This document shows, one piece after another, positions 4,179 to 41,570 of a stretch of 64,000 nucleotides of DNA (position 1 is the stretch's first letter; every line of letters begins with the position of its first letter). A program made the translations under genes and the position numbers. The notes beneath the pieces were generated by a model. That model had not been told where the DNA came from. It did not search any database and worked only from the letters and a program-made list of their open reading frames with translations. Origin of the DNA: Halichondria panicea. Taxonomy: Eukaryota > Porifera > Demospongiae > Suberitida > Halichondriidae. Location: the NCBI RefSeq assembly GCF_963675165.1, contig NC_087388.1:4407047-4471046 (forward strand). Direction: 5' to 3'.

Positions 4179-7100
4179 ATGTTGAGAGCTCTTTCCCTTC
4201 TCCTGGTAGTCCAGCTGTGTGTTGCACAGCAGCTAGAGTGGCCCAAACAGTACACTGCCAAGGGTCACATCATCCTGCCTTACGGAGAAATTGTGGAGCC
4301 CTTCACTGCCTATGTGGACATGAGTGGCAAGGGAAGGAGCAGGATAGACTATTATGGAGGTAACTTGAGCTGCAGCTGAATAAACACGGTCATTAAGCTT
4401 AGATCTACCAGCTTAGATCTAACGTTATTTTGTTCACATTGACACTCAGAATTGATACTGAGGGCTACATTGTTAAAGTGGCTAGCTACATTGTTTGAGT
4501 GTGCATGCATGCATGCATGTGAGAATGTTTAGTATTTCAATGTCAAACAGTATATACAACCCTTAATTCTCACCTCACTTGAAATGCAAACCTTAGAGAA
4601 AACATATCCTACACACTTGAGGTCAATTGGAGGAGCATTTCTGCTTTTTGCTTTTAAAATCACATTTTTAGAGTGAGGTGAAAGGGTTGTATATCAGGTA
4701 AGACAAATCTCATCCTTCTTCAGGGGCATTCCATCAATTTAAGCGCCCATTAATTTTTCTTGTAGGGTCGGCTATCGACCTCAACCTCGGAGACCAAGGC
4801 CAGCATGGAACAATCTTCAAGATTGCCTACGAGACCACTCAAGAGTTTGCCAATGTCATGACTTGTTTTGGAGTGCCTGGAGTAGTAGGAGCCCCTGTGA
4901 CCCCGCAGGGCGTACTGCCAGATATTTCCATGTATAAGGTACGGTATGATTGTGGACACAGATGAACTGTATGGAAGTACCGTTGTTGAGATGTAGACAG
5001 GCTGAGGGTGCATGTGCTTTTAAATATGACATGATGTCTCTTTATGCAGCATGGTGGGAGAGGCTGCTGGCAGATGGTATAGAGTGCGCATGCGTAGGAC
5101 TAGATAGTTTAATGTTTCAAATCGAATCAAAGCAGCAACATGTCCAACGTCAATTTTAAGCTTCCTAGCTTTTGGAACAAAGCTTTATTGAGAAAATCTG
5201 CCAATTTTTTTGTTGTGTTGAAGGCTATCCATAGTACAAACACAAAGCTATGGTAGCCAGGTGCAGACTCAGATTACACAGAACGCCAGACTGACCAACT
5301 ACTAAGCCTTAAGGAATCCATAATTGACCACAAATTATCCCCCACTCACCACGCTAATTGAACCGAGGCGCTGTGGCACGCCTCGGATTACAGCAGTCTT
5401 TCTGTGTGTCTGTTTGTTTGTTTGTGATTACATGCAGTAGACTGTCATTAATCCGGCCACCCTTGGGACAGTGTAACTTGGCCGGAATAGTGAGATGGCC
5501 ATAATTTCAGAAAATAGCCACGGCTAAAAAGCGATCCCTATTTTGCGGTTCTGTCTCGAGGATAATGATCATTTTGCTCTCTATTTAAGTATAATCCGAT
5601 TTTATCTGCCAAACCACACCCAAAACGTCGTATCCGGCCGTAATAAACGTATAAAATTACATAAAAAACCTAGTTTGGGGCAGTAAACATCTAGCTAGCA
5701 ATCCGTGCTAAACTAAATGGCCGGTATATCGAGATGGCCATACTTAGAGAGCCAGAATAGCGAGAGTCTACTCTGTGAGTCTTCTCACCTGGGCAGTGCC
5801 ATTGCATGCGCTGCATTTACAGGATCGAGTAACACATTAGATTTACAGTAGGCTCAGGGGCGTAGCTAGGGAGTTGCTAGGGGTGCTCGAGCACCCCCAT
5901 CCATGCAACCTAAGTCAAGTACAAAACACAAAGAAATGTATATCTAGTTGAGCACCCCTTCTCGTCAGATCTTTCTGCAGTTTGCTAGCTAACAATTATA
6001 GGCAAGCAAAATGATTCAGTCTCTAAACTGTGAGCTATTCTGGCCTAATCTATAAACTATAGTTCTCTTTCGTATAGCTAATAGGCTTCTCTATGCAAAT
6101 AGAAGATTGGGCCACGCCCCACTAGTTAATCATGACACCATTAATAAGAGGTGTGGCTTCCTGTCAACCAAATTTCGGCGCTTCGGGCCCTCTTTCATCT
6201 ATGATAGCATCCCCTTCCGATCAAAATTTTGGCTACGCCCCTGAGGCTCTCACCCGCTATTCCGGCTCTCTGAAGTATGTCCACCTATATATATTGGCTA
6301 TTTGGTGCTATTATGTTTACTCACAAAACTCGCCCTGAAATGCGGCTACTCGCTATTCCGTATACTGGCCGGTGCTGGCTGCCCCAAACTATATTGTTTA
6401 TACGTTTATTACGGCCGTATATGACGTTTTGGGTGTGGTTTTGCAGATAAAATTGGTAGAGGAACATAATAATTCATATCCTCGAGACAGAACCGCAGTC
6501 ATTACATTCGAGGTAGGGTCGTTTTTAAGCCGCGGCTATTTTAACCAACTCGCTATTCCGACCAAGCTGCACTGTCACAAGGGTGGCCGGATTAGCTAAC
6601 TGTAATTGTGCCAGATTTTCTCATAAAAGCTTTGTTGTCGAATAAAAGCTAAGAAGCTTGAAGGTTTGCACGTATATCACACTAGCTTGAACCATTTGTA
6701 CTGGAAAGGCTCAGGTCTGCATGTAACTGTACAATTGCCTCTTGCACTGGAAAGCACTAGCACTCATAGCACCAGGTGACACACGATACTACCTACCACT
6801 AGTTAAAGAGTTGATCAGCTTCGATCTACATCAAGCCTGGCTATAAAATGTATCGTGTCTGGCTTGTAACAGCTGCACAACCTCTTGTACTGGAAAGCCT
6901 CTAGCTAGCTAGCTCAGGTCTGCATCTAGCTATACAATCCCTTGTACTGGGAAAACCCCTAGCTGAAATAATATATATTGTTCAATGTGCACTCCCCCCT
7001 GTACAGTATGCGACTGACTTGATGTACAACGGTGTGATGTCAGAGGTCTACATGTCCAGTAACACTGAGGAAGAGAAGAACAACAACTACACTCTCATTG

Positions 7101-26281: not shown

Positions 26282-27015
26282 ATTTAATCATAATTTTACC
26301 TATGATAATTTATTAAACATGCATGTGTCTAGAGTAGTGTATAGAGCATCTTATTTGTCCTACATGAATGTAATGCAGTGCGGATGAATTCACTTACATC
26401 CACCTGCATGCATGGCTAGTTGGCTACCCTCTGGATGGAAGCTAGTCATCTCAGACTGTCCCATGCAGAGATAGTCATCCACTGCACCCATGCATGCATG
26501 TACTTGCAATTGTGAGACTGAACACCTTCTATTTTGAACTCGGATCACCTTGAAGTGATACACACATTTATAATTATGGTATCGCTTGTCATGAACATTT
26601 TGGTCAATAGCTCAACCTGTTACCTAAAATCCATAATTTTTATATAATTTAAAATGATACTATAATTATAGTGTGAATTTTGTGAAAATTTGAAAATGTA
26701 GCTAGTTTCTGGGTAGTGAAAAAATTAATCAACAATTGTATAGACAACAATTTATGCTTCCAAATAACGCTTAATTGTGCAATGGCACTTTCTTCATTCA
26801 GAATAGCGGATGCATGGAAGACACCTATATACCTGCATGGGAGTATACATGTATATGGATGTGAGATAGAGAACAGTTAGAGAAGAGTAATCACACATGA
26901 CATTATAATTCGAAGCTCACACATAATTATTAGTGCACTGTCTGTGTTAACCCAAACAATTTCAGGGGTAATAATTTGAATTCCTTGAAATTTCAAGCCA
27001 AGTACTAACTGTAAT
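26282..27015. other. Unannotated AT-rich spacer
   Basis: No gene or clear repeat seen. Several AATTATA tracts occur, and one CTTGAAATTTCAAG palindrome near 26988. Confidence 0.4.
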
Positions 27016-29630
27016 GTTTCAAAGTATTTGCATGTATTGGTGTTTTTTATAGGCCCCCTTCCTCACTTTTGTCAACCTTTGATGAGTTATTTCATGTTTT
27101 AAGTAGTCTAAATAGTTGTTCAATTTCAAATCTTATTTTACTAGGTGACTTTAATGTGAATGTTCTGTCAGCAAATAGTTCTTTGTGCAATCACCTTGCA
27201 AATATTACTGACTGCTTCTCTCTAACTCAGGTGGTGAAACAACCCACACGCATTGCAGCTGATGGCACATCAACTCTTATTGACCTCGTTCTTATGTCAT
27301 CTCCAAGAACTCTAAAGTACTGTGAAACGGTGCCTCCACTAGCCAACTCTGATCATCTTGGCATCAGTCTACAAGTGAAAGTTCGTGCAAACTCTCACAC
27401 TCGTACGCACACAAACAAAGTATGGAGATATGATTATGCTGACTTTGACAAAGCAAGATATATGTTGGCTACATTTGATCTTACCAGCTTCATACACCCA
27501 AGTTCTGTTGAGTCATCCTGGAAAGAGTGGAAGAATGTATTCATGACTACTATGAGAAATTGTATTCCCACAGCAGAAATCGCAACCCGAAAGAATCTTC
27601 CTTGGCTAACGAAAAATATAATAAGAGATATCAAAAAGAGAAACTATTACAACAGACTTGCCAGAAAATACAACAAACCCTCTGATTTTGCAACCTACAA
27701 ACAGATCAGAAATAAGGTTGTGACCACTCTCAGACGGAGTAAACAAGATTTCTTTAGCACCCTCAAGCCTCAGTCAAAAAAAAAAAATTTTGGACAGCTC
27801 TGAAATACCTGAGAAAATCAGATAGCTCTATCCCATGTCTTGTAGTAAATGGCTGCAAAATCGAACAGGATGAAGAAAAGGCCCAGGTCCTTAACAAACA
27901 GTTTTATGCAAATTTCAACCATTCACTTCCTCCTCTTGACCCAGATTCCTTTAAACAACCAACAAGAGACTTACCTGAGAACTTACGCTGCACAGAAGAT
28001 GAAGTATTCAACCTGTTATCAAATCTAGACACCACAAAAGCAAATGGTCCTGACGGAATCTCCGCCAAAATGCTGAAGGCTACTGCTGAAACGATCACCC
28101 CAAGTATAACAATGCTTTTCAATATATCGATAAAAAACTGTGAACTGCCATACGACTGGAAATTGGCTCATGTCACTCCAATACCCAAATCAAACGACAA
28201 GTCTGATCCCTTAAACTATCGCCCTATATCGCTACTCTCCATCCTTGTAAAGCTCCTGGAAAAACATATGTATAGTAAAATCTTAGAACATCTAAAAGAT
28301 ATATCTTTCCTCTCGAATAAACAATGGGGTTTCACTAAAGGAAAATCCACCACAGGTGCGCTGCTTACGGCAGTGCACAATTGGCACAAACTGCTTGAAG
28401 ATGGTCAGAGTGTATGTGCAGTCTTTTTTGATTTCAAAAAAGCATTTGACAAGGTTCCTCACTCGATATTGATGAGTAAGCTAACCAATCTGAACCTAGA
28501 TCTCCATCTGGTATCTTGGGTAGCAAGCTACCTCAGGAATAGATCACAATATGTCATAATAAATGGAAAGTCATCAAATATCTCGGAGGTTGTGTCAGGA
28601 GTTCCCCAGGGTTCGGTGCTGGGACCTCTTCTTTTCCTAATCTATATAAATGACATCGATCTACATCAAAATGAAGGAAGTCTCTTGCTCTATGCTGATG
28701 ATCTTCTTCTTTACCATCCTATTCAATCTCCTGAAGATTATCTAAAATTGCAAGGAGATATTGATCAACTCCAAGCATGGTCTGAAAGAAATGTACTCTT
28801 GTTTAACCAAAGCAAGTGTAAATACATGACTATATCAAGAAAATTCAGCCCACCACTTCCCAACATGTTTCTCAATATCAGTGGACGTCCCCTACTTAAA
28901 GTTGACCACTACAAGTACCTTGGAGTGTGGATCTCTCACGACCTCTCATGGTCAAAACACATAGAAGGAATGTGCATGCAGAAATGCCTGCAAGCAGGTT
29001 GCCGACAGTTCTATGGCCACTCGTCACTAGAATGTTTAAGACAACTCTACATCTCACTTGTGAGATCAAAACTGGAATATGCTGCCCCTGTTTGGGATCC
29101 ACACCAAAAAACAAATTCTCACAAAATAGAAAAAGTACAAAAGTTTGCCCTTAAAATCTGCACAAAACTTTGGAATAGGGACTACGACTCCCTATTAGAT
29201 ACTGTGGACCTACCGTCCCTTTCCACAAGAAGATTGTACCTGAAACTATCATACCTTTACCAGGTAATAAATGGTAACTTTAAATTCCCTGATCCACCAC
29301 TGGAAAGAAGAGTATGCCCTCTCAATCTAAGAAGCACAAAAAATATACAGTTTAAAGACCAATTTGCAGAACAAATGCATATGCGAACTCTTTTTTCCCA
29401 AAAGCAATATCTGTATGGAATGAATTACCACTGGAGCTGCAGGAAAGTACATCGATTTTGTCATTTAAGAGAAATGTACTCTGTCACTTGCATTAGTATA
29501 ATATTAGTCTTTATTTTTAATTTGTACTCGCTATTGTAAGTAATATATACAGGGCACACATTAGGTTAGCATAATATGCTACTAGTGTATCCATGCATTT
29601 TGCAGAATTATTATAAAAAAAAAAAAAAAA
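27016..29630 (+). mobile_element. LINE (CR1/Jockey-group-like), 5'-truncated and frame-broken
   Basis: The 3' end of an apurinic-type endonuclease (YRPPSS near 27048, LLGDFNV, ANSDHLGI) is followed by reverse transcriptase: NYRPISLL, FFDFKKAFDKVPHSIL (motif A), VPQGSVLGPLLF, and YADD encoded at 28691-28702. A thumb/C-terminal part with KLEYAAPVWDPH follows, then a 3' UTR ending in A17 at 29614-29630. It is dead or damaged: the endonuclease and RT frames are offset at a 12-A run (27776-27787), and the C-terminal frame changes again near 29350-29370. The N-terminal endonuclease and ORF1 are missing. LINE class is certain; clade is inference. Confidence 0.9.
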
Positions 29631-29924
29631 GATCATTGCTATACTAAAATACTTGGCTTGAAATTTCAATTAGGCAAACTGTAGATGTTCAATAATTATT
29701 GCAGTACTCTATAATCTCATAATTCTCAAGCTAAGTGATAATAAAAATTATATATAATTATAATACACAAATTTTTCAAAGATCAAAGCTATAATTATAG
29801 TTCTCAAAGTGCTTGGCTTGAAATTCAAGGTTTTTAACACTGTATAGCAGTCAAGTAATTATGTATTTTGTTGGAATTATTGTAACTATAAGTATGTACT
29901 ATCAAAAAGTAATCTTAACATCCA
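29631..29924. other. Spacer between LINE poly-A and the ParB-methyltransferase gene
   Basis: AT-rich sequence with two copies of a GGCTTGAAATTTCAA-like motif; no coding signal. Confidence 0.4.
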
Positions 29925-32900
29925 TTAATTAACAGTTTTCTCAATTGAGGATAGTTGCTTCAATAGAGCTTGTGTTTCGTTGTTTTCCAGTGCAAGGGCA
30001 CTCCGTCCATTCTTGACAGCAGATGAAGATACTTTCCCTGGGGATGAGTGTATGCACGTGAGATGTTGCACAGTAATCCAGGCATTACATGTACATGCAC
30101 ATGAATCTTTTGAACATCAAGTTAACTTCCTAACCATGCAAACCATACACATGTCTTGAAATTTCAAGCCTGATACATCATAACTATAAACGCAAATTCC
30201 CAAAGTGCTTGAAATGTCAATGACTATTGTACGTATAATTATCCTGTCTGCAAAGAACTAGCTGTGCAGTTGTGGCTTGAAATTTCAAGGATGTACCTTG
30301 CCTCGAACCCAGGCCGCAGGGAGGCCTGGTTCGAGGCAAGGATGTACCGTATATGCTTTATCAGGAGCCGCGGCTACTAAATGTTTCGAAGAGGAGGCTA
30401 CAATTAGAGAGAGGCCACTGTTCAAGAGCGGCCTTTATTAGCTCCAGCTAATTCAACTTGTTATCAAAAGTTATTTTCACCTGCATAAACTTAAACTCTG
30501 CCATGAGAAAGTCTTTGTGAAGCACTAAGAAGCAGTTACCTGTACCTAGTAGCTACGTACATCTAGCTAGCTGCTAGTATTGACCTGTACCTAGTAGCTA
30601 CATACATCTAGCTAGCTGGTAGTTGTTTTGGCTGCCACGTGCAGAAATGCTAGAGTCAAAGTTCACTGAGGCTACTATTTGAGAGCGGCTACTAAAATTA
30701 GTTTCATTTTGCTAGCAAGGGAGGCTACTATTTGAGTGCGGGCCTTTATACAAGAGCGGCCTCTGATCGAGCATAATGCGGTAATTATTGTACAGAGATT
30801 CATTACACGATCTTTACCATACTAAGGATGACCTTTTTTGCAAATTCTCTTTAAAGGATCTTTACCATAATGCAGGATGACCTTTTTGCAAATTATCCTT
30901 AAAGGATCTTTACCAGATGTTAACAGTACTTACTATTCCCACTCGAAGACCCATTGCCCAGGTGATGTTAGTAGTTTAATGAGTTCCTGATAAAGCATTG
31001 GTTTTGGTCTTGCCCTGCCTTGAGGTGTATTGATAGGCTCATCCATAGCTACTGTTAGAAGGTTGCCCACAAACTCTGTTTTCTTAGCAAAGAAAGGGTA
31101 CTCATTGCAAGAAGACCATTGCCCAATCACCATTGGTGTTATAGTGTTTTGAAGATCACACCCTGTGTACGTATCTGTATATGTAAACAAAATGTAGTGG
31201 CTTTTTGTGTTTAAATGTAGTATAGGTGTACTCATACAATATAAATTTATTGTAAGTACATACTATAATTATATCACCTTTGCTTGCAGCGCTGGTGTCT
31301 TGCATGTATGCTGTTAGTACATACTATAATTATATCACCTTTGCTTGCAGCGCTGGTGTCTTGCATGTATGCTGTTAGTACATACTATAATTATATCACC
31401 TTTGCTTGCAGCGCTGGTGTCTTGCATGTATGCTGTTTGTGCTTTGCAATCTTGCTGCTGCAACTCCAGGTCTTGTGGTGGGGAAATTACAACTACTGCA
31501 AAGGACGATAGGCCCAGGGCAATGTTGGTAGATCTCACTAGGCGTACAATTGTCGTTACTTCTGTGCACGACCAGTCCTGTATGAGATTTACACAGGTGA
31601 ACGTGGTACATCATTGTATAATCATGTATGTATACGTACGTAACCTACATTGTGTAGATGCTTGCATACCATTGATTCTGTAAAGCTATAATAATACGTA
31701 CATACCCCAACGAATGTTGCCTTTTATATGTTATTCTAATGATGTGCTGTAATATAAAATTAGCAAACTAATTACTTACCTCTGGTGTGTCGAGGATGGT
31801 GAGGTGCAGACCACTGCACTGCAGACTCCCAAAGCCATCCAGTAACTCTCTCGTACTGACCGTGATCACGTTCGCATTTATAATAACCGCGAAACTGTTG
31901 TCATAACTGACATGTAGGCCGTCTGTGACGCTAGTTGGTTGTTCTATGGATTTGTTTAGTATAGCTTGCTTTGCTTGGGTACAGAAGGAGCAAAACGTTT
32001 GGGGAACATTGCTCTTTTTGAAATAGAGGGAAGTAAACTGTGCCAAGTTTTCGTCAGATGTGTGCGTAGGGTAAAGCTGCAGTGCTTCCTCCCAAGAGCC
32101 GATGTCGAGTTGCGTTATGAAGGCCAATTTAATCTCTTTCATTTTTTTTATGACTTTGCACTTTTGGCTTAGGTCTTTAAGCGACAACTCTCCACATTGA
32201 ACTTCCTGTAAGAGGTTTCGTCTTTCTTCCTCTTCCAACCCTCGAAGCGGCTTAAAATTAACGCCTTTGCAGCTAATTTTTGAGTACTTGTCTCTGCCCT
32301 CGTGACAGCTTTTGGTTTTTGAGGTCGCACAATTCATATTGAGCAAAAATCTCTAAAACACAATCATACTCAACGTCGGGTAACGAAGCCAGGAAGAAGA
32401 CCATTGAGTATTCGAGCTGTTGCACCTGTATACAAACGTTATGAACTAGTTAACCCGAGATACGTACGTACATACATTATGCAAATGCATAATTATTATG
32501 TATGACAAAGGTATGACAATGTACCGTATTTACTTGATTAAACGCCCAGGGTAAAAGTTCTGTCTTTGTCAATAAACTCACATCTTAAATAATCTCCTAT
32601 GTATGGGGTGTAGCACTGTGGGTGGAGCTAGATACTATTTACGATGGCAGCGCAGAGAGAGAGATATCAACACAGAGGGAAAACAATACTCCTATTATGA
32701 CTTTTAAGCTAAGAAATAGATTTAAGCTGAGACAGCAGTCAAGAAGAGCACAATAACTGCTGCTGCGCAAGAGTTTGGAGTAGACATGACAATAAACGCC
32801 CGTTTCGAATAAACGCCCTCTCTACAGACGTTGCTAGGAGATAAACGCCCGGGCGTTTAATCAAGTAAATACAGTACGTGTGTAAGCACGAGTTTGTCAC

Positions 32901-34148
32901 TCACCTGCAGGCTGAGTAGACTAGCACATGCCTTTCGCCACTCTGTCTTGCTACTCCTCCCAGCATACCTGCTTCTGCATATCATTACCTACATAACGAA
33001 AATAGTTTCCTTTTACTAACTACTAGTTTAGGTGTTGCTATGTATCCGTACATCATAAATGCGCGCTTACCTGATCTTGTGTCGTCATTTTGTGAGTAAG
33101 ATCGGTTGCCCTGTTGTGTTTCGAAGCTATCATTAAGGCCACGTCGTCATCGACACCTGTATAAACTGCTACTAGCCTTGTCTGAAGGCTTTCTCTTGGG
33201 TTTTCGACAGCCAGCTCCTGAAGTGCAATTCTGCTATGATTGCCCCCAATCGTTTCATACTTGTATAGTGCTGGATGTTTTTTATCGAATTCTTGACCGT
33301 CATCGAGGCATGGTATACCAATAATGGGTGACACCGTAGAAATTTGGTTCGCCATTATTTCGTCTTTCAGAGTGTTGATAAAAACTCTATCTGGGGGTCT
33401 CAAACATCTGCTCATTCTAGGCTCCATTAGACAGGAAATGGGAATCTCATAGCACCCTATAACATTGACCGATTGCAATTTGCATAAACTTAATTACTTA
33501 TTGAGCTCACCAGTATAGTACTGTATGATGTCATTGTCACTGTCTTCATCAATTTTTTTCTTCTTTGATGGTCCAAGACCTGTGCTTGGTGAAGTATGCT
33601 TACCAAGCTGCACTAGTGGCTCATCCTGGTACTTGCCTATAACGATACATGGAAAAAAAGCTCTCAGTTTAGTGTAATTAATTTATAGTTATTTACGTAA
33701 GCTGTCAAACTCCGAAAATTATAAAACCTGCATGCATGCATGCACTAGGTGATTCATGAAAACCATGTCACGCGCTTACCAGTGTTGCTGTCAATTCTTG
33801 GAAGAACTAGCCGAGTCCATTCTTCATGGAACTGCGTGGCGCTCTTTGCATTCTTAAACTGTCTTGAAAATGGTGATTTCTCCCATGTAAAGTCTACCAG
33901 TGACTTCTCTCTTGCTGCTTCTTGGTCCAGTAACTTGATCTGCATACATTAGTCTAATACTTGCATGTGCCATGCATGCAGTGTATCTGTATCTACCGAT
34001 AAACATTTATATAGAAAAAGCTTACCCTGATCTTGTCGTTGCTAGCTTTAACTGCAAACACAGGACCATTAGTTTCCTGTGTCGCATTCTTCACGATATG
34101 AATGTAGCTGTCTTTGACATCAAAATACCACTCCTTGTTTGCTGGCAT
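29925..34148 (-). CDS. ParB-like domain fused to beta-class N6/N4 DNA-methyltransferase-like domain
   Basis: Exons on the minus strand: 34026-34148 (starts MPANKEWYF), 33780-33939, 33511-33636 (lysine-rich GPSKKKKID, possible nuclear signal), 33071-33456, 32905-32988, 31780-32425, 31400-31577, 30934-31162 and 29925-30037; about 680 residues. Exon 4 is ParB/sulfiredoxin-like: RPPDRVFINTLKDEI, ISTVSPIIG, YKYETIGGNHSRIALQEL, VAVYTG, ASKHNRAT. The C-terminal exons follow a beta-class MTase order: an ILDTPEDW site where DPPW is expected, then KPMLYQELIKLLTSPGQWVFEW, then AVKNGRSALALENNE. The canonical DPP(Y/W/F) and FxGxG are not intact, so catalysis is doubtful. Two defects are visible: a +1 in the T5 run at 32277-32281 (exon 6), and an unclean join of exons 8 and 9 (TA plus G makes a stop). 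This fusion is known from phage and bacterial proteins. Decayed gene or assembly errors remain possible. Confidence 0.72.
30296..30344. repeat. Perfect-stem hairpin
   Basis: CCTTGCCTCGAACCCAGGCC, a 7-nt spacer GCAGGGA, then GGCCTGGTTCGAGGCAAGG: a ~19-bp stem with a single bulged base. It lies in the last intron of the ParB-methyltransferase gene, adjoining the MITE at 30345. Confidence 0.7.
30345..30782. mobile_element. MITE with TACCGTATATGCT / AGCATAATGCGGTA ends
   Basis: The left TACCGTATATGCTTTATCAGGAGCCGCGGCTACT and the right GAGCGGCCTCTGATCGAGCATAATGCGGTA are imperfect inverted repeats. The interior carries repeats of GAGGCTACTATTTGAG and a duplicated CCTGTACCTAGTAGCTAC block. It lies in the last intron of the ParB-methyltransferase gene. 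Confidence 0.55.
30815..30915. repeat. Tandem repeat of ~57 bp (two copies)
   Basis: GATCTTTACCATA..AGGATGACCTTTTTTGCAAATT.CTTTAAAG occurs twice and then begins a third time, ending 18 bp before the exon 8 donor of the ParB-methyltransferase gene. Confidence 0.65.
31252..31435. repeat. 61-bp tandem triplication across an exon-intron boundary
   Basis: Three near-identical 61-bp units (TAGTACATACTATAATTATA, TCACCTTTGCTTGCAGCGCT, GGTGTCTTGCATGTATGCTGT). On the minus strand each unit carries the end of exon 7 (..GACACCAGCGCTGCAAGCAAAG) and the same GTGATA donor. The gene therefore has three copies of one splice donor. Confidence 0.85.
32522..32876. mobile_element. MITE family C, complete copy
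   Basis: TACCGTATTTACTTGATTAAACGCCC at the left and GGGCGTTTAATCAAGTAAATACAGTA at the right are inverted; 355 bp. It sits in intron 5 of the ParB-methyltransferase gene. This is the reference copy for the split element at 7467-8652 and the fragment at 2806-2906. Confidence 0.8.
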
Positions 34149-34559: not shown

Positions 34560-36335
34560 GTAGCAAATAATTATTTAACTTAATCGACCACCTTTATTGC
34601 TCACATACGTACTTTGCCTAATACATTACAGGGAGCCCTTACTTATCACCCTCTAGTAGAATCTGAAAACCTGTCGGTCAATTAGCTAAGCTAGTGTATA
34701 CACATGTGCACCGGATTTGCTATTGTGACAACTTAATCGACCACCTTTATTGCTCACATACGTACTTTGCCTAATACATTACAAGGAGCCCTTACTTATC
34801 ACCCTCTAGTAGAATCTGTAAACCTGTGGGTCAATTTTTTATTCTTAGCTAAGCTAGTGTATACACATATGCACCTTACAGAGGATTTCAGGTTGGTTGG
34901 CAGAAGTTAAAAGTTGAAGTGCACTCAACCACGACCACACACTGTGTGTTTCTTCTACTAATGTAATTAGTGGTCATGGTTGACTGCACTTCAACTTTTA
35001 ATTCTGCCAACCAGCCTGAAATCCTCTGTATCATTTGCTATTGTGACTGTAGCAAATAATTATTCAACTTAATCGACCACCTTTATTGCTCACATACGTA
35101 CTTTGCCTAATACATTACAGGGAGCCCTTACTTATCACCCTCTAGTAGAATCTGTAAACCTGTGGGTCAATTAGCTAAGCTAGTGTATACACATGTGCAC
35201 CGGATTTGCTATTGTCTGTAGCAAATAATTATTCAACTTAATCGACCACCTTTATTGCTCACATACGTACTTTGCCTAATACATTACAAGGAGCCCTTAC
35301 TTATCACTCTCTAGTAGAATCTGTAAACCTGTTGGTCAATTAGCTAAGCTAGTGTATACACATGTGCACTGGATTTGCTATTGTCTGTAGCAAATAATTA
35401 TTCACTTAATCGACCACCTTTATTGCTCACATACGTACTTTGCCTAATACATTACAGGGAGCCCTTACTTATCACTCTCTAGTAGAATCTGTAAACCTGT
35501 GGGTCAATTAGCTAAGCTAGTGTATACACATGTGCACCGGATTTGCTATTGTCTGTAGCAAATAATTATTCAACTTAATCGACCACTTTTATTGCTCACA
35601 TACGTACTTTGCCTAATACATTACAAGGAGCCCTTACTTATCACTCTCTAGTAGAATCTGTAAACCTGTTGGTCAATTAGCTAAGCTAGTGTATACACAT
35701 GTGCACCGGATTTGCTATTGTCTGTAGCAAATAATTATTCACTTAATCGACCACCTTTATTGCTAACATACGTACTTTGCCTAATACATTACAAGGAGCC
35801 CTTACTTATCACCCTCTAGTAGAATCTGTAAACCTGTGGGTCAATTAGCTAAGCTAGTGTATACACATGTGCACCGGATTTGCTATTGTCTGTAGCAAAT
35901 AATTATTCACTTAATCGACCACCTTTATTGCTCACATACGTACTTTGCCTAATACATTACAGGGAGCCCTTACTTATCACTCTCTAGTAGAATCTGTAAA
36001 CCTGTTGGTCAATTAGCTAAGCTAGTGTATACACATGTGCAACGGATTTGCTATTGTGAATAGCAAATAATTATTCAACTTAATCGACCACCTTTATTGC
36101 TCACATACGTACTTTGCCTAATACATTACAAGGAGCCCTTACTTATCACTCTCTAGTAGAATCTGTAAACCTGTTGGTCAATTAGCTAAGCTAGTGTATA
36201 CACATGTGCAACGGATTTGCTATTGTGAATAGCAAATAATTATTCAACTTAATCGACCACCTTTATTGCTCACATACGTACTTTACCTAATACATTACAA
36301 GGAGCCCTTACTTATCACCCTCTATACAATCTGTA
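34560..36335. repeat. Satellite array, ~168-bp monomer, about 10 copies
   Basis: Each monomer runs TAATCGACCACCTTTATTGC, ACATACGTACTTTGCC, TTACTTATCAC, GTAAACCTGT, GTGTATACACATGTGC, GATTTGCTATTGT, GCAAATAATTATTCA. Monomers begin near 34579, 34732, 35069, 35238, 35406, 35574, 35743, 35911, 36079 and 36247. Identity between monomers is very high; the first lacks the CTGTAGCAAATAATT linker, the second carries a MITE insertion, and the last is truncated. The array starts about 410 bp upstream of the ParB-methyltransferase start codon. Confidence 0.9.
34877..35030. mobile_element. Hairpin MITE inserted in a satellite monomer
   Basis: TACAGAGGATTTCAGGTTGG..AGTTGAAGTGCACTCAACCA on the left is inverted on the right (GGTTGACTGCACTTCAACTT..CCTGAAATCCTCTGTA), giving a 154-bp foldback. 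The satellite unit resumes after it at GCTATTGTGACTGTAGCAAA. Confidence 0.75.
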
Positions 36336-36339
36336 CCCA

Positions 36340-37340
36340 TAAGGATGATACAAAATATACAGCAATTAAATATAATGATATAAAAGTCATACATTTTAAA
36401 TACGTATCATAATTGTTCACAGTATACGAGTGTATTATTATATGGCTATAGACTCAATAAGTTCCACAAAAGTTCTATATATAGTGGACCTTGTTGTCTC
36501 TGTATGGAAACACAGTGAAAACAATTAAAATATGAACTTGTATATGTTTTACGTGACATGCAATTCTATATCCATTACCGCCATTCCGCTTGCTATTATA
36601 ATTATATATACATGAGCTCCATATAATTATAGATATATCATCATCAGTTTAATATAGCTAAAGCAACACTTTTTATGAACAGTTTAAGCATATTTTTTTT
36701 TATGTTAGGTTGTCTGTGGGAATATTGAAAAAAGCTGTCCCTTTTGATTATAGGCTAAAGATGAGTCACATGCAACAATGACTTTACTGTTGAATTTCGC
36801 ACGTGATCAAGCCTAATCGAGGTATACTTGCGTCGTACTTCTTTTGACTGTGTCATGTTGACCATTTACAGAAATGATTGACGCTGCTAAAAAGGATGCT
36901 AAAAATTCGAAGTCCATAATAATATTAGGCTAAACAGCTTTGCAGCTTTTTTCACTCACAGCTACCAATATATCACAGCTACCAATATAATCACTCAAAC
37001 TCTATAATTATACAGATGTATAAGGAGAGTCTTATTACTAACTGGCAGAGCTCTAGCTGTCTGGAAGGCCTCATTGAACTGCAATGTGCATGCATGCAGG
37101 GTCACATGATACATAATTATAATTATGCATGCTTCCTAGTTTGAAAAAACAAAGCAAAATCTGCCACTGGCCGAGCTATAGGGCTTCCATGCAGATGAGC
37201 AGACATAGAATATGTACACATATATACAAACAAACCAACGGACTACTAAGGTGTCACGAGCTTAATAAAATGTGTGGTATTTATATGTACTAAGGGAGTT
37301 AATAAAATGTGAGGTATTTATATGATTGTACGTACATTGA
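36340..37340. other. AT-rich spacer with start of the segmental duplicate
   Basis: No gene seen in 36340-37040. From about 37040 (TAACTGGCAGAGCTCTAGCT, CTGGAAGGCCTCATTGAACTGCAATGTGC) the sequence aligns with about 510-700, marking the edge of the duplicated DD-gene segment. Confidence 0.55.
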
Positions 37341-37348
37341 GTGACATG

Positions 37349-40300
37349 CTAACAGATTTCATCAGCTATCTTCTCTTTTTTCAGTTTCAGTAACAACTCC
37401 AGTAGAGCTCTGTAAGTTGCTGCATAAGGATTGTGCGTTTTCCAGAGAGTAAAGCATTTTGTCATGGCTACTTGAGTTCCTTCTCTATGGTACAACACAT
37501 TCACATCGGCTTGTTCAGCAGGAGTTAATCCCATGGATTTAGAATAGATCGCCACACCATCGAAATATTCGGTCAGGTAGGGAAAATCAGAATTGCTTAT
37601 TTCACTGCTGAGTTGCCCACCAGTCAGATTGTACTGTCTTATTAGTTTTTGGAGAGTAACTCGACTTGTGGATGGTCCTGTATATAGAGGAAGCGAACAA
37701 TGGAGTGAATCCAGAAAAAAACATACAATTAAAACGACTGTTACCAGCAAATGATGAGCCTGAGGTTGAAATTCCAACTTTCTGGACTCGAGCGGTTGGG
37801 CATTGGAGCCTTTCCGATGACAGTGACCCCGTACCTACATAAAATATTCACTGAACAACAGCTAGTGTTACAGTTTGTTGAACAATCAAACCTGATGATG
37901 GCGTCTTCACAATGGATTTAGAGCCAGATTTATTATCTGCATATCAACAGACACTGAAATATGCACTGACGTTAAAACAACTTACCACCCTCATCGTAAA
38001 TTTTGTAAAAACACCATTTTTTATGCTCAGTTGGTGTTCTGTGGTAAGAGCATATCCCACTGAGTTCACCTTTGTGGGTGATGATCCTAACCAAAAGTTA
38101 TAATAATTATATACTGGCTCCCTATAATTAGTATTATGGCTAAGAGTGCAATCTATGTACAATAATGATAATCTGTTTCACATCCGGTCCAGTAATTGCA
38201 TGCACGTCATCATTGACAGCGTTCAATTACCTGTCAAGTAATTGCACACTGTCAATGACAACGTACAATTTTCGAATAACGGAAACTGCTATTAAAACTG
38301 CAGACAACTTTATCATACACGATGAGTATGCATGGTTACATGTGCAATAAGGGATTAATAGCACTCATAATAAGCACTGGCATGCAAGGTTAATAGCACT
38401 CGGCCATGCCTCATGCAATTAGTAGCCTTGCCATTGCTTGTTACTCATGCTATTAAACCCATTTTAGCTATAATTATATCTAAGAGTACGCATTCTCATC
38501 CTGCAAGCGCACGTGTTATCACTTACAACTCGATGTGCTTGAATGACTTACGACTCTTGCTACATTCGGTATACTCAGTTTCTGTAGATTCCCTAGATAT
38601 ATATACAACAGTAGAAAATGGATTTACCTTATATATAATTATACTATAATAGTCGATCCCATGCAGGACGAGTTTTCGCTTTCATATCGGATAGGCCTGG
38701 TACTAGTTGTCTGCACATGCGTCAATCGTTCGTCAGATTCTATATATATATACTCCCGTTCACTTTTGACATTTATATTGATGTACTATCGTCAAGGGCG
38801 TATAAAGAGAAGAGGGCATGCAACTACAATATAAATGGACGGGGGCTTATGTTTATTGCACGTGCACTGACTAGCCTTGTTTTTACTCTATCTATAGTGG
38901 GCAGTTGGCTAAATATAGCATATCCTGCATGCTGACTCATCAATAATACGCATATACACTGTATATACATTGTGAGTTGCATGCCCTCTTCTCTTTATAT
39001 GCCCGTACTAGCGGTCACTATCCCATTTAGAATCGATTGGCTTAGAAAACATTATTCTGATTACAGAACAACAAGTGAAGGCTATAAAGCTTTGCATGCA
39101 TTTCAGATATTTTTTGGTGGTTCCTATATGCTATCAAGTCATTTTTGTTTGGCAAGATTTCACCATTTAGATCTATCTATCTTATGGTGGATCAAGTGAA
39201 GAGTGTGAGCTAGATGACTTGGTGCTGCCATCACAGCTCGAACAGAGGGATTGACAATGACACTAACCTGTTTAAAATTAATACGAGAAATTCACGTGTT
39301 ACAGAATGTCTACAGTTCATTTAGTCTAGAGAGTAGATTACCACAAATGTGTGAGTAGTTGTACTTAAATGTAAAATTATTAATATCTTTTGATTGGAGC
39401 ATTTCTAAGAAATGGTGTTGATACCCGTGTGTAGATGAATGACTGAACTACAACATATCCAAAAATGTTTCATAAGGTGGTGGGTTTGTGGTGATTAATA
39501 GAACAACAGCAAATTGTTATAGTGGGTAATCGGTTAGAGTAATAAAACACTAACCTTAAACAGCTAAGGTCTTAGACTTTTATCACACAATAGTTTAATG
39601 GTTTAGATATCCTGGCCATCCCTTTATGGGTCTTACATATGCTCACAGTGTCTATAATTCATGATTTACCGGTTTTTAGGTACACTTTTAGTTAGAGTAA
39701 TATCTTCTGAACATTTTATAGCTTAGCTTTAAAAGTTATCTGGTAAGTTTACAAATAAATGGGCTACATTTTGATACCAAGAACATCCTCTATGCTTATT
39801 CCATTGTTGAGATATCACTGAAAAACTACATATTCTACTATTTTCTACCGTTTTGATGACATCACAAGCTGCTAACCACAAATCGATGACACTTTAATTA
39901 ACCACGTAAGTGGGCGTACAATAACTGTACGCCCACTCTTAATTACATTTGTGGTTGATTAAAGCATCATTGGTTTGTGGTTGGCAGCTGTTGATGTCAT
40001 CAAAACAGTAGAAATTATGTAGCTTTTCCAGTGTTATCTCAGCAATGGAATAAGCATATAGGATGTTCTTGGTATCAAAATGTAGCCCTTTTATCTGTAA
40101 ACTTACTACAGAAATTTGAAAGCTAAGCTATTAATTTTCAAAAGTTATTACTCTAACCAAAAGTGTACCTGAAAGCCAGTAAATCATGAATTATAAACAC
40201 TGTGAACATTTGTAACACCCATAAAGGGATGGCCAGGATACCTAAACCATTGAACAATTATGTGATGAAGTCTAGGACCTTAGCTGTACAAGATTACTGT

Positions 40301-41570
40301 TTTATTACTCTAACAGATTACCCACTATAACAATTTGCTGTTGTTCTATTAATCACCACAAACCCACCACCTTATGTTTCCATGGAAACATTTTTGGATA
40401 CGTTGTAGTTCAGTCATTCATCTACACATAGGTATCAACAAAATTTCTTAGAAATGCTCCAATCAAAAGATATTTACATTTAAGTACAACTACTCACACA
40501 TTTGTGGTAATCTACTCTCTAGACTAAATGAACTGTACTTCTCTGCATAGGAGATGATGGCTAATATCCAGCTATCCCAACAGTACTCCTCTTGGCTATA
40601 TATACTATAACGGTCCAGTGTGAGGCAAGCGTTTAAACGTGCACTCTTTTTGTCCTTTGGTTTTCTATTTAATCTTGTCGGCCTACTCACATGCAGGACT
40701 GGACTGTATATATCTGCTCGTCGAGCGTAATTGTTTCCGGCAGCTCAGAAGCAGCAAGAGAATCTACGTTTCTCAAGCAAGGTTTGCCTGAGTTACGAAT
40801 AGGGACCTCTATTCTATTCAGAGAGGTACAGCAGCCTGCTAAACTGTAATTTTGAGGCATTTTGAGGCATTCAATCATCCTGAAGTTGCCCTGGGTCACT
40901 ATAAATCGTGCTGCAGCACAACCGGCAACTCCCTTTGTGAAGCAGCTTCCTATGTTCATCTTTTATATACCCACTGAATTTTCTATGTATATATGAATTT
41001 CAATTATATATTGGTTTAATAAAGTTTTTTACCGACAATGAAAATTTAACGCATGCACAGACAACTCTAGTATAATTACCATATCCGATATAAAATCGGC
41101 CTGGGATCGAGGCTATAAAGCCTATATATAATTATATACATAAAGGCTTACTCTGAGAAATGTTCGAGCCTCCTCTTTGTGGGGTCATCCGGGAATAGAT
41201 CAACAACGCTCTTCATATTTGGTCGATATCTTCCTCGCCTGATGCGGACCCATTCATTTATCAAAAATGCAGCTAATATATGCTGGTTGCTGGTTTTTTT
41301 CTCTGCTGACTTCAGGGACTCGGAAGACTTTGTTTTAAATATTTTGCTTAGCTTTTCTGGTGTGTGCCCTAGTTTCAATAATTCTCCAGCTAATTTCAAT
41401 TGGAAAATAGGGAACACTAGCGGGTTTGAGTGTGCTGAATAAAAATAATTCAGTGCTAAATTCACAATTCACACACTGAACAAAATGCACAATTTACCAA
41501 TTTGGCTGCGGGGTCTTTCAGTAGATCTAATGCCTTTTCCATAGGCATAGTCTTTATAAGGTTTATGGCC
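37349..41570 (-). CDS. Death-domain gene, copy 2 (apparently intact)
   Basis: Exons in matching phases: about 41498-41570 (5' end not defined), 41152-41434, 37986-38086, 37892-37936, 37745-37834 and 37349-37677. The 41152-41434 exon encodes a conserved helical region (LAGELLKLGHTPEKLSKIF, then NMKSVVDLFPDDPTKRRLE) that I do not recognise. A short exon has EWCFYKIYD-like sequence (here KKWCFYKIYDEG), a serine-rich linker follows, and the last exon is a death domain (VTLQKLIRQYNLTGGQLS, ALLELLLKLKKEKIADEIC, stop). Compared with copy 1 at 680-3460 the frame is open throughout, and the stop falls earlier. A possible extra exon (40691-40959, ending at a GTGAGT donor) exists only here. Likely a cytosolic death-fold adaptor; the first exon and true start are unresolved. 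Confidence 0.6.
38791..39000. mobile_element. MITE family D, duplicated copy with eroded right end
   Basis: Same insertion as 2188-2400 (identical left flank CTATCGT), but the right terminus and target duplicate are lost by a small deletion. The MITE therefore predates the segmental duplication. Confidence 0.75.
39313..40535. mobile_element. 1.2-kb foldback transposon (Tc1/mariner-like, TA target)
   Basis: Inverted arms of about 600 bp each start CAGTTCATTTAGTCTAGAGA and end with the complement CTAAATGAACTG, with a short centre near 39925-39945 (GTGGGCGTACAATAACTGTACGCCCAC). TA flanks at 39311-39312 and 40536-40537. The paralogous segment at 2700-2720 reads GAATGTCTACTTCTCTGC, the uninterrupted site with a single TA. 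No transposase. It lies in the long intron of DD-gene copy 2. Confidence 0.9.

Follow-up and report, generated by a model that had tools for sequence, protein, structure and literature searches.

A ParB-like/methyltransferase-like fusion gene in the sponge Halichondria panicea as probable cargo of a cut-and-paste DNA transposon family

What is a gene with a ParB-like half and a methyltransferase-like half doing in the genome of an animal? The question is raised by a stretch of 64,000 nucleotides from the sponge Halichondria panicea (contig NC_087388.1 of assembly GCF_963675165.1, positions 4,407,047 to 4,471,046; hereafter, the window), where a preliminary description had placed such a fusion in a nine-exon gene on the minus strand and proposed that it was a host gene possibly turned into a chromatin factor. 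Comparison across the 131-Mb genome points elsewhere. The gene is repeated and transposon-borne, is often paired with a gene for a DUF7869 protein, and is broken in the window. We consider it probable (roughly 70%) that the window contains a decayed copy of an accessory gene from a cut-and-paste DNA transposon family, in which the fusion would serve as a non-catalytic DNA-binding helper acting in trans. The transposon reading is based on dispersed near-identical copies, terminal inverted repeats (TIRs), target-site duplications (TSDs) and the pairing with DUF7869 genes.

Exon 4 of the window gene, which carries the ParB-like domain, has matches at 13 places in the genome and exon 6 at nine, both counts being lower bounds. 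With an exon of another subfamily, here called A-type, as the query, 18 rows were obtained that merged to 15 loci; adding one degraded locus (L036), at least 16 dispersed loci have a ParB/methyltransferase gene. Copying has been recent in part of the family: four A-type loci (L025-L028, on contigs C1, C3 and C8) share about 99% identity across thousands of bases. Full-length A-type elements measure approximately 9.8 kb and have the inverted ends AACAC...GTGTT. For instance, one on C8 spans 9,805 bp and is bounded by TIRs of 35 bp that begin AACACATTCACTG and are identical at 34 of 35 positions. There are 22 genome-wide matches to the A-type terminus at two or fewer mismatches, and AACAC is found at the termini in three diverged subfamilies, the third of which begins with it at an alignment border, with one end seen. 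An exact 4-bp TSD (AAGA, ATAG or ATAT) flanks three of the four two-ended A-type elements, of which two are on C8 and one each on C11 and C12. A-type elements therefore have both the TIRs and the fixed-length TSD by which a cut-and-paste DNA transposon is recognized.

The second gene of the A-type element is encoded divergently from the ParB/methyltransferase gene, and its product matches Pfam DUF7869 (E=1.3e-30). This was the sole domain above the Pfam cut-off in the five A-type open reading frames scanned, with no separate search made for TET/JBP or KDZ. Across the genome, DUF7869 gave 56 rows that were merged by hand to 31 loci. At nine of the 16 ParB/methyltransferase loci a DUF7869 gene lies head-to-head, with centres 2-11 kb apart; at two more it lies within 12 kb in another orientation (one of these being the partner of the neighbouring locus), and five, including the window copy and a sister copy on C1, have none within 12 kb. 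Counting any orientation within that distance, the observed 11 of 16 compares with a mean of 1.6 of 16 (maximum, 6) under random local shifts of 20-200 kb. The nine head-to-head pairs represent about five lineages, as four A-type copies are near-identical and the loci at C1:8.26M and C7:4.0M belong to one subfamily. The DUF7869 protein is the putative transposase of the family, and we take it to be an RNase-H DDE enzyme.

Two unusual arrangements of termini were also observed. At C3:1893821-1893869 (L048/L049), only one base separates the right end of one copy from the left end of the next, which may be a tandem insertion or a circle-junction-like event. Helitron-type elements were considered for this head-to-tail junction, and the TIRs and TSDs speak against them. 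On C13 (5.63-5.98 Mb; L059-L063 and L066), six copies of a related terminus have near-identical 30-base flanks, which suggests local amplification of one solo end.

How does the window gene itself look? The minus-strand chain of nine exons between 34148 and 29925 has GT/AG borders and consistent phases, as first described, and the ParB-like and methyltransferase-like strings that had been quoted are located in exon 4 and in exons 8 and 9, respectively; the borders of exons 7 to 9 were read by eye. Exon 1 (34148-34026) starts with MPANKEWYFD, comparable to MPATKRWHFE in the A-type subfamily, and is followed by exon 2 (33939-33780) and by exon 3 (33636-33511), which has the lysine-rich stretch GPSKKKKID. 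The ParB-like domain (GGNH ... ASKHN) occupies exon 4 (33456-33071), with the strings ETIGGNHSRIALQEL, VAVYTG and ASKHNRAT. After exon 5 (32988-32905), exon 6 (32425-31780) begins with a helical-looking linker, enters the start of the methyltransferase-like domain and ends in LTILDTPE, which aligns to DPPY at low confidence. A strand region with AVVVISPPQDLE makes up exon 7 (31577-31400), whose 3′ end and splice donor fall within a 61-bp tandem repeat (31251-31440) that has about three units in the window and one in the sister. The methyltransferase-like region continues with KPMLYQELIKLLTSPGQWVF in exon 8 (31162-30933), where motif I is damaged, and ends with a motif II-like AVKNGRSALALE in exon 9 (30037-29925), which falls within the sequence that makes up the sister element's long inverted repeat. 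This exon pattern is not due to chance, because these exons are found again at many loci and the profile-profile scores of each half beat all 20 column-shuffled controls.

The window copy is nevertheless broken and truncated. In exon 6 the reading frame is shifted with respect to the sister, and the end of exon 8 has suffered a small deletion that took away part of motif I and created an early stop (30935-30933), so that the window reads VFEWE-stop where the sister reads VFDPLSGN. A division of exon 6 into two exons around a short intron was rejected; the sister is open across that stretch, and a small deletion is simpler. The sister is open at both sites that are damaged in the window, yet it has a stop in its own exon 1. 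The fusion architecture that had been proposed for a multi-exon animal gene is retained with weak to moderate support, in a genome that ten exon matches to Wnt over the Pfam cut-off mark as animal, and it is the integrity of this particular copy that is lost.

The window copy can be followed outwards from the gene to one end of an element. Its left terminus, which starts AACACCTTCTATTTTGAACTCGG and is an exact match to the terminus sequence (at C12:4433567), opens the first part of a long terminal repeat (26521..27024). The same terminus is found at both ends of the sister, whose flanking sequence is different from that of the window copy. No right terminus of the window copy was found in the 64-kb window, and hence only one end is seen. 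The terminal region is interrupted by a plus-strand insertion resembling a non-LTR retrotransposon (27025..29627; RVT_1 open reading frame at 27758-29536, E=7.3e-37), with a poly-A run just before 29628. This insertion is absent from the sister, where the sequence of 26544-27024 continues directly at 29628. The remainder of the long terminal repeat (29628..30817) is present at both ends of the sister in inverted orientation. Directly upstream of the gene are tandem repeats of about 169-bp units (34560..36335; array called at 35033-36335), within which the alignment between window and sister stops, at 36335. They are related to repeats in the sister, whose corresponding region is also an imperfect inverted repeat. 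Beyond them, the window has a 1.2-kb palindrome at 39311-40537, which shows 86% identity when compared with its reverse complement, and the adjoining 37034-39313 repeats 506-2712 in direct orientation at 79% identity.

Three long blocks of the sister (L023 and L024, on C1), spanning exons as well as introns, are 92.6-97.7% identical to the window. Introns were copied together with exons and, therefore, DNA rather than mRNA was copied. The sister ends in AACACCTTC on both sides, within perfectly identical inverted repeats of about 1.7 kb, one of which is split by a 0.9-kb insertion. These long perfect repeats were not adopted as a sign of a special mechanism, as they were seen in a single element and could equally well have arisen by gene conversion or repair. 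The insertion, in the right terminal repeat (L024 4156-5057), has the ends CCCTTTCCC...GGGAAAGGG, lies beside TTAA and resembles what we take to be a non-autonomous element of the piggyBac type.

The next question is whether the two halves are what they seem. For the first half, the PHROG profile for ParB-like proteins matches window exon 4 at E=3e-4 and 0.043, DUF6551 is found in three of six subfamily ParB exons (best E=0.003), and NCBIfam gave only TIGR00295, in one of the six (E=0.033). In a tblastn search of 50,697 phage records, the window ParB exon matched 62, all weakly (best E, 0.01). The best 20 of these 62 comprise 14 labelled ParB-like, one DNA-binding protein and five hypothetical proteins, three of the latter being second records of phages otherwise labelled ParB-like. 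Comparison of the aligned ParB exons with four phage ParB-like proteins in hhalign gave E=7.4e-6 over 52 columns, with a probability of 84%, and all 20 column shuffles scored 0.1 or worse. ParB/Srx proteins have a G-x-H core and a downstream N motif, and the strings GG[NQLV]H and AS[RK]HN are kept in all six aligned subfamily sequences. An arginine follows GxH in the ParB/Srx active site; here, the residue after GGxH is S, T or G in all six sequences and never R. Overall, exon 4 appears weakly to moderately ParB-like.

For the second half, the PHROG methyltransferase profile matches the window-type end at E=0.0046 and the A-type end, whose last exon was found by reading frames, at 4.4e-4; these two ends are approximately 20% identical over the domain. 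The window-type end matched 352 phage records at E<=10 (best listed, 0.03), and among the best 15 of them all 13 that are annotated are a methyltransferase or methylase. With the A-type end only two weak phage records were obtained, one an adenine methylase and one unannotated. Against three phage methyltransferases, hhalign aligned 64 columns of the motif I/II region at E=1.6e-7, and all 20 shuffles scored 0.068 or worse. Motif II was also sought in the other subfamilies with a regular expression, without a useful result. The 3′ exons thus resemble, weakly to moderately, the C-terminal half of beta-class DNA methyltransferases. Motif IV, [DNS]PP[YFW], is not intact: in a permissive, low-confidence alignment that sets LTILDTPED over VITDPPY, the corresponding place reads DTPE, DIPV or NVQK in the three subfamilies in which it was read. 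Because of these readings catalysis looks lost, although the methyltransferase fold may be kept. A phage or bacterial origin of the putative fusion is plausible, and the phage searches, a tblastn search of plasmids with the window ParB exon (no match) and scans of IMG/VR and GTDB contigs with the ParB alignment revealed no close prokaryotic relative.

What might such a protein do for a transposon? A-type elements carry two divergent multi-exon genes, one for the DUF7869 protein as the probable transposase and one for the ParB-like/methyltransferase-like fusion. We propose that the latter would bind DNA, most likely that of the element, through its ParB and methyltransferase folds, would not methylate what it binds and would assist the element in trans. 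Its most likely job would be protection from, or reversal of, silencing by the host. This role is proposed by analogy with fungal transposons that carry TET/JBP genes and with the VANC proteins of plant transposons, the latter being, to our knowledge, unrelated to the fusion, and is put forward as a tentative suggestion that falls somewhat short of an even chance. The next most likely job, help in assembling the transposition complex, is rather doubtful. A broader and quite speculative proposal, less likely than not, is that elements with a DUF7869 transposase, AACAC ends and a 4-bp TSD make up a new superfamily among animal DNA transposons, and that they encode a sequence-specific DNA-binding ParB/dead-methyltransferase factor for counter-silencing or replication licensing that came from a prokaryotic ParB-methyltransferase.

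Action in trans is suggested by two elements that have lost the ParB exon. Those on C11 and C12, with exact 4-bp TSDs and different flanks, share an identical junction that deletes A-type positions 5163-6660 (1.5 kb), including this exon, and both retain the terminal 1.5 kb, where the methyltransferase end lies. The simplest reading would be that a copy already devoid of the ParB exon moved, aided by proteins made elsewhere. Thus, ParB seems dispensable in cis, since two TSD-flanked elements at unrelated sites share its deletion. Alternatively, the deletion may have spread between the two elements by gene conversion.

Several findings weigh against the fusion as an accessory gene of this transposon family. 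Regarding the domains, Pfam ParB_N (PF02195) matched nothing in the genome or the scanned proteins, a Pfam scan of the spliced window protein returned nothing, and N6_N4_Mtase was found at E=0.016 and 0.1, under the cut-off. Profile searches of PDB supported neither fold, with one meaningless match (E=1.6) and otherwise none. As far as Pfam is concerned, the outcome thus comes close to the lack of a significant profile match that the preliminary description had named as grounds for rejecting the fusion, whereas PHROG, tblastn against phages and the profile-profile comparisons support homology. By tblastn, the ParB exons of two other subfamilies matched no phage, so that this link to phage ParB proteins comes from the window subfamily; in addition, the phage proteins for both profile-profile comparisons were chosen by similarity, which favours the result. 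Regarding the element, the fourth two-ended A-type element lacks an exact TSD where one is expected, GACA being shifted by one base, and the ParB-deleted elements account for two of the three whose TSDs are exact. Seven of the 16 loci are not paired head-to-head. The sister, despite its two ends, lacks a matching TSD, and the Pfam genome search found no DUF7869 near it or near the window copy; consequently, the membership of these two copies in the family is drawn from gene homology and the AACAC terminus.

The best-surviving alternative is that the fusion is passenger cargo, a captured gene with no role in transposition or silencing. In favour of this, elements without the ParB exon have TSDs, and the catalytic motif is disrupted in all three subfamilies that could be read at that position. 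Recent copies also fit this idea. Between the F-type copy and its partner on C4, the nonsynonymous divergence (dN) of the ParB exon is 0.025 and the synonymous divergence (dS) 0.033, with no constraint evident, and recent copies may be decaying; between window and sister, the changes are too few to interpret (exon 4, dN 0.003 and dS 0.025; exon 6, dN 0.008 and dS 0.019). Over longer times the picture is different. When subfamilies are compared, synonymous sites prove saturated but the protein has been conserved, with a dN for the ParB exon of 0.27 (A-F), 0.24 (H-I) and 0.49-0.67 in more distant pairs and, for exon A5 of the A-F pair, a dN of 0.196 against a dS of 2.24. The DUF7869 exon has diverged likewise (dN of 0.17-0.38 in three pairs, with one copy containing a stop). 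This pattern points to long selection within the element lineage and makes a mere passenger unlikely.

Could the fusion instead be the recombinase itself, or an obligate part of the transposase, with ParB as a nicking nuclease? The window copy and the sister share the AACAC terminus though DUF7869 was not found beside them, and the bacterial ParB-methylase Bce_0392 is described as a nicking endonuclease (PMC5512222). Nevertheless, the DUF7869 gene is the usual partner, and the loss of the ParB exon from two TSD-flanked elements at different sites implies that ParB is needed at most in trans, which renders this alternative quite improbable. It is slightly less credible still that the fusion is an active methyltransferase that marks element DNA at N6-adenine or N4-cytosine. 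The C-terminal motif I/II region is retained in two subfamilies, and the window subfamily has the string SPP in its exon 7. However, other subfamilies have ISTS, IGED, IGEY or ICSV in place of that string, and the altered residues at the DPPY-aligned position, albeit aligned at low confidence, argue in the same direction. Least probable of these is a domesticated host gene of which the other loci are copies, as its introns and lysine-rich stretch might suggest, because the introns were copied along with the exons (93-98% identity to the sister), the termini are repeated, TSDs and paired DUF7869 genes are present and the window copy is broken.

If true, the accessory role of the fusion would matter in several ways. 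It is suspected that bacterial DNA-modification modules reach eukaryotes by way of modification genes carried on transposons, and such genes may also serve as weapons in the struggle between transposons and silencing; a ParB/methyltransferase fusion in an animal transposon would extend this idea to a new protein class and a new host kingdom. The system is possibly still active, with copies that are about 99% identical and have intact ends. A word of caution follows for genomes of this kind, where a ParB-like or methyltransferase-like gene may be transposon cargo instead of host epigenetic machinery. In the literature, no paper on DUF7869 was found, and the titles and abstract openings of the papers listed mention no eukaryotic DNA transposon that combines ParB with a transposase; the superfamily may bear another name, Repbase being outside the comparison. 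Transposons with DNA-modification genes are already known, and for this combination in an animal no published description was found.

Among known systems, the closest in layout are fungal transposons with TET/JBP genes, for which escape from methylation-based silencing has been suggested (PMC12730594). Both are eukaryotic DNA transposons with a second gene, of a DNA-modification family, beside the transposase. Unlike those elements, which are described there as KDZ or Plavaka, the present ones have an animal host, a ParB/methyltransferase-like fusion that is probably without catalysis, a DUF7869 partner, AACAC ends and 4-bp TSDs. KolobokP elements, described as composite-like animal DNA transposons with a DDD/E transposase and a His-Me finger homing endonuclease (PMC9587614), also join a transposase to a second protein; they are named there as a Kolobok lineage, and their second gene is, by description, of another kind. 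At the level of the protein, the nearest counterparts are phage and bacterial ParB-like proteins and ParB-methylases (PHROG 6392, and Bce_0392, described as a ParB fused to a methylase; PMC5512222), which have the ParB-like GNH core and the C-terminal motif I/II of methyltransferases. By contrast, the sponge gene bears introns, is carried by a transposon and has no intact motif IV, and its phage matches are weak. In function, the proposed analogue is found in the VANC proteins of Arabidopsis VANDAL transposons, which are reported to be sequence-specific, to be encoded by the transposon and to counter silencing (PMC10398659, PMC5735166), much as the sponge fusion might do.

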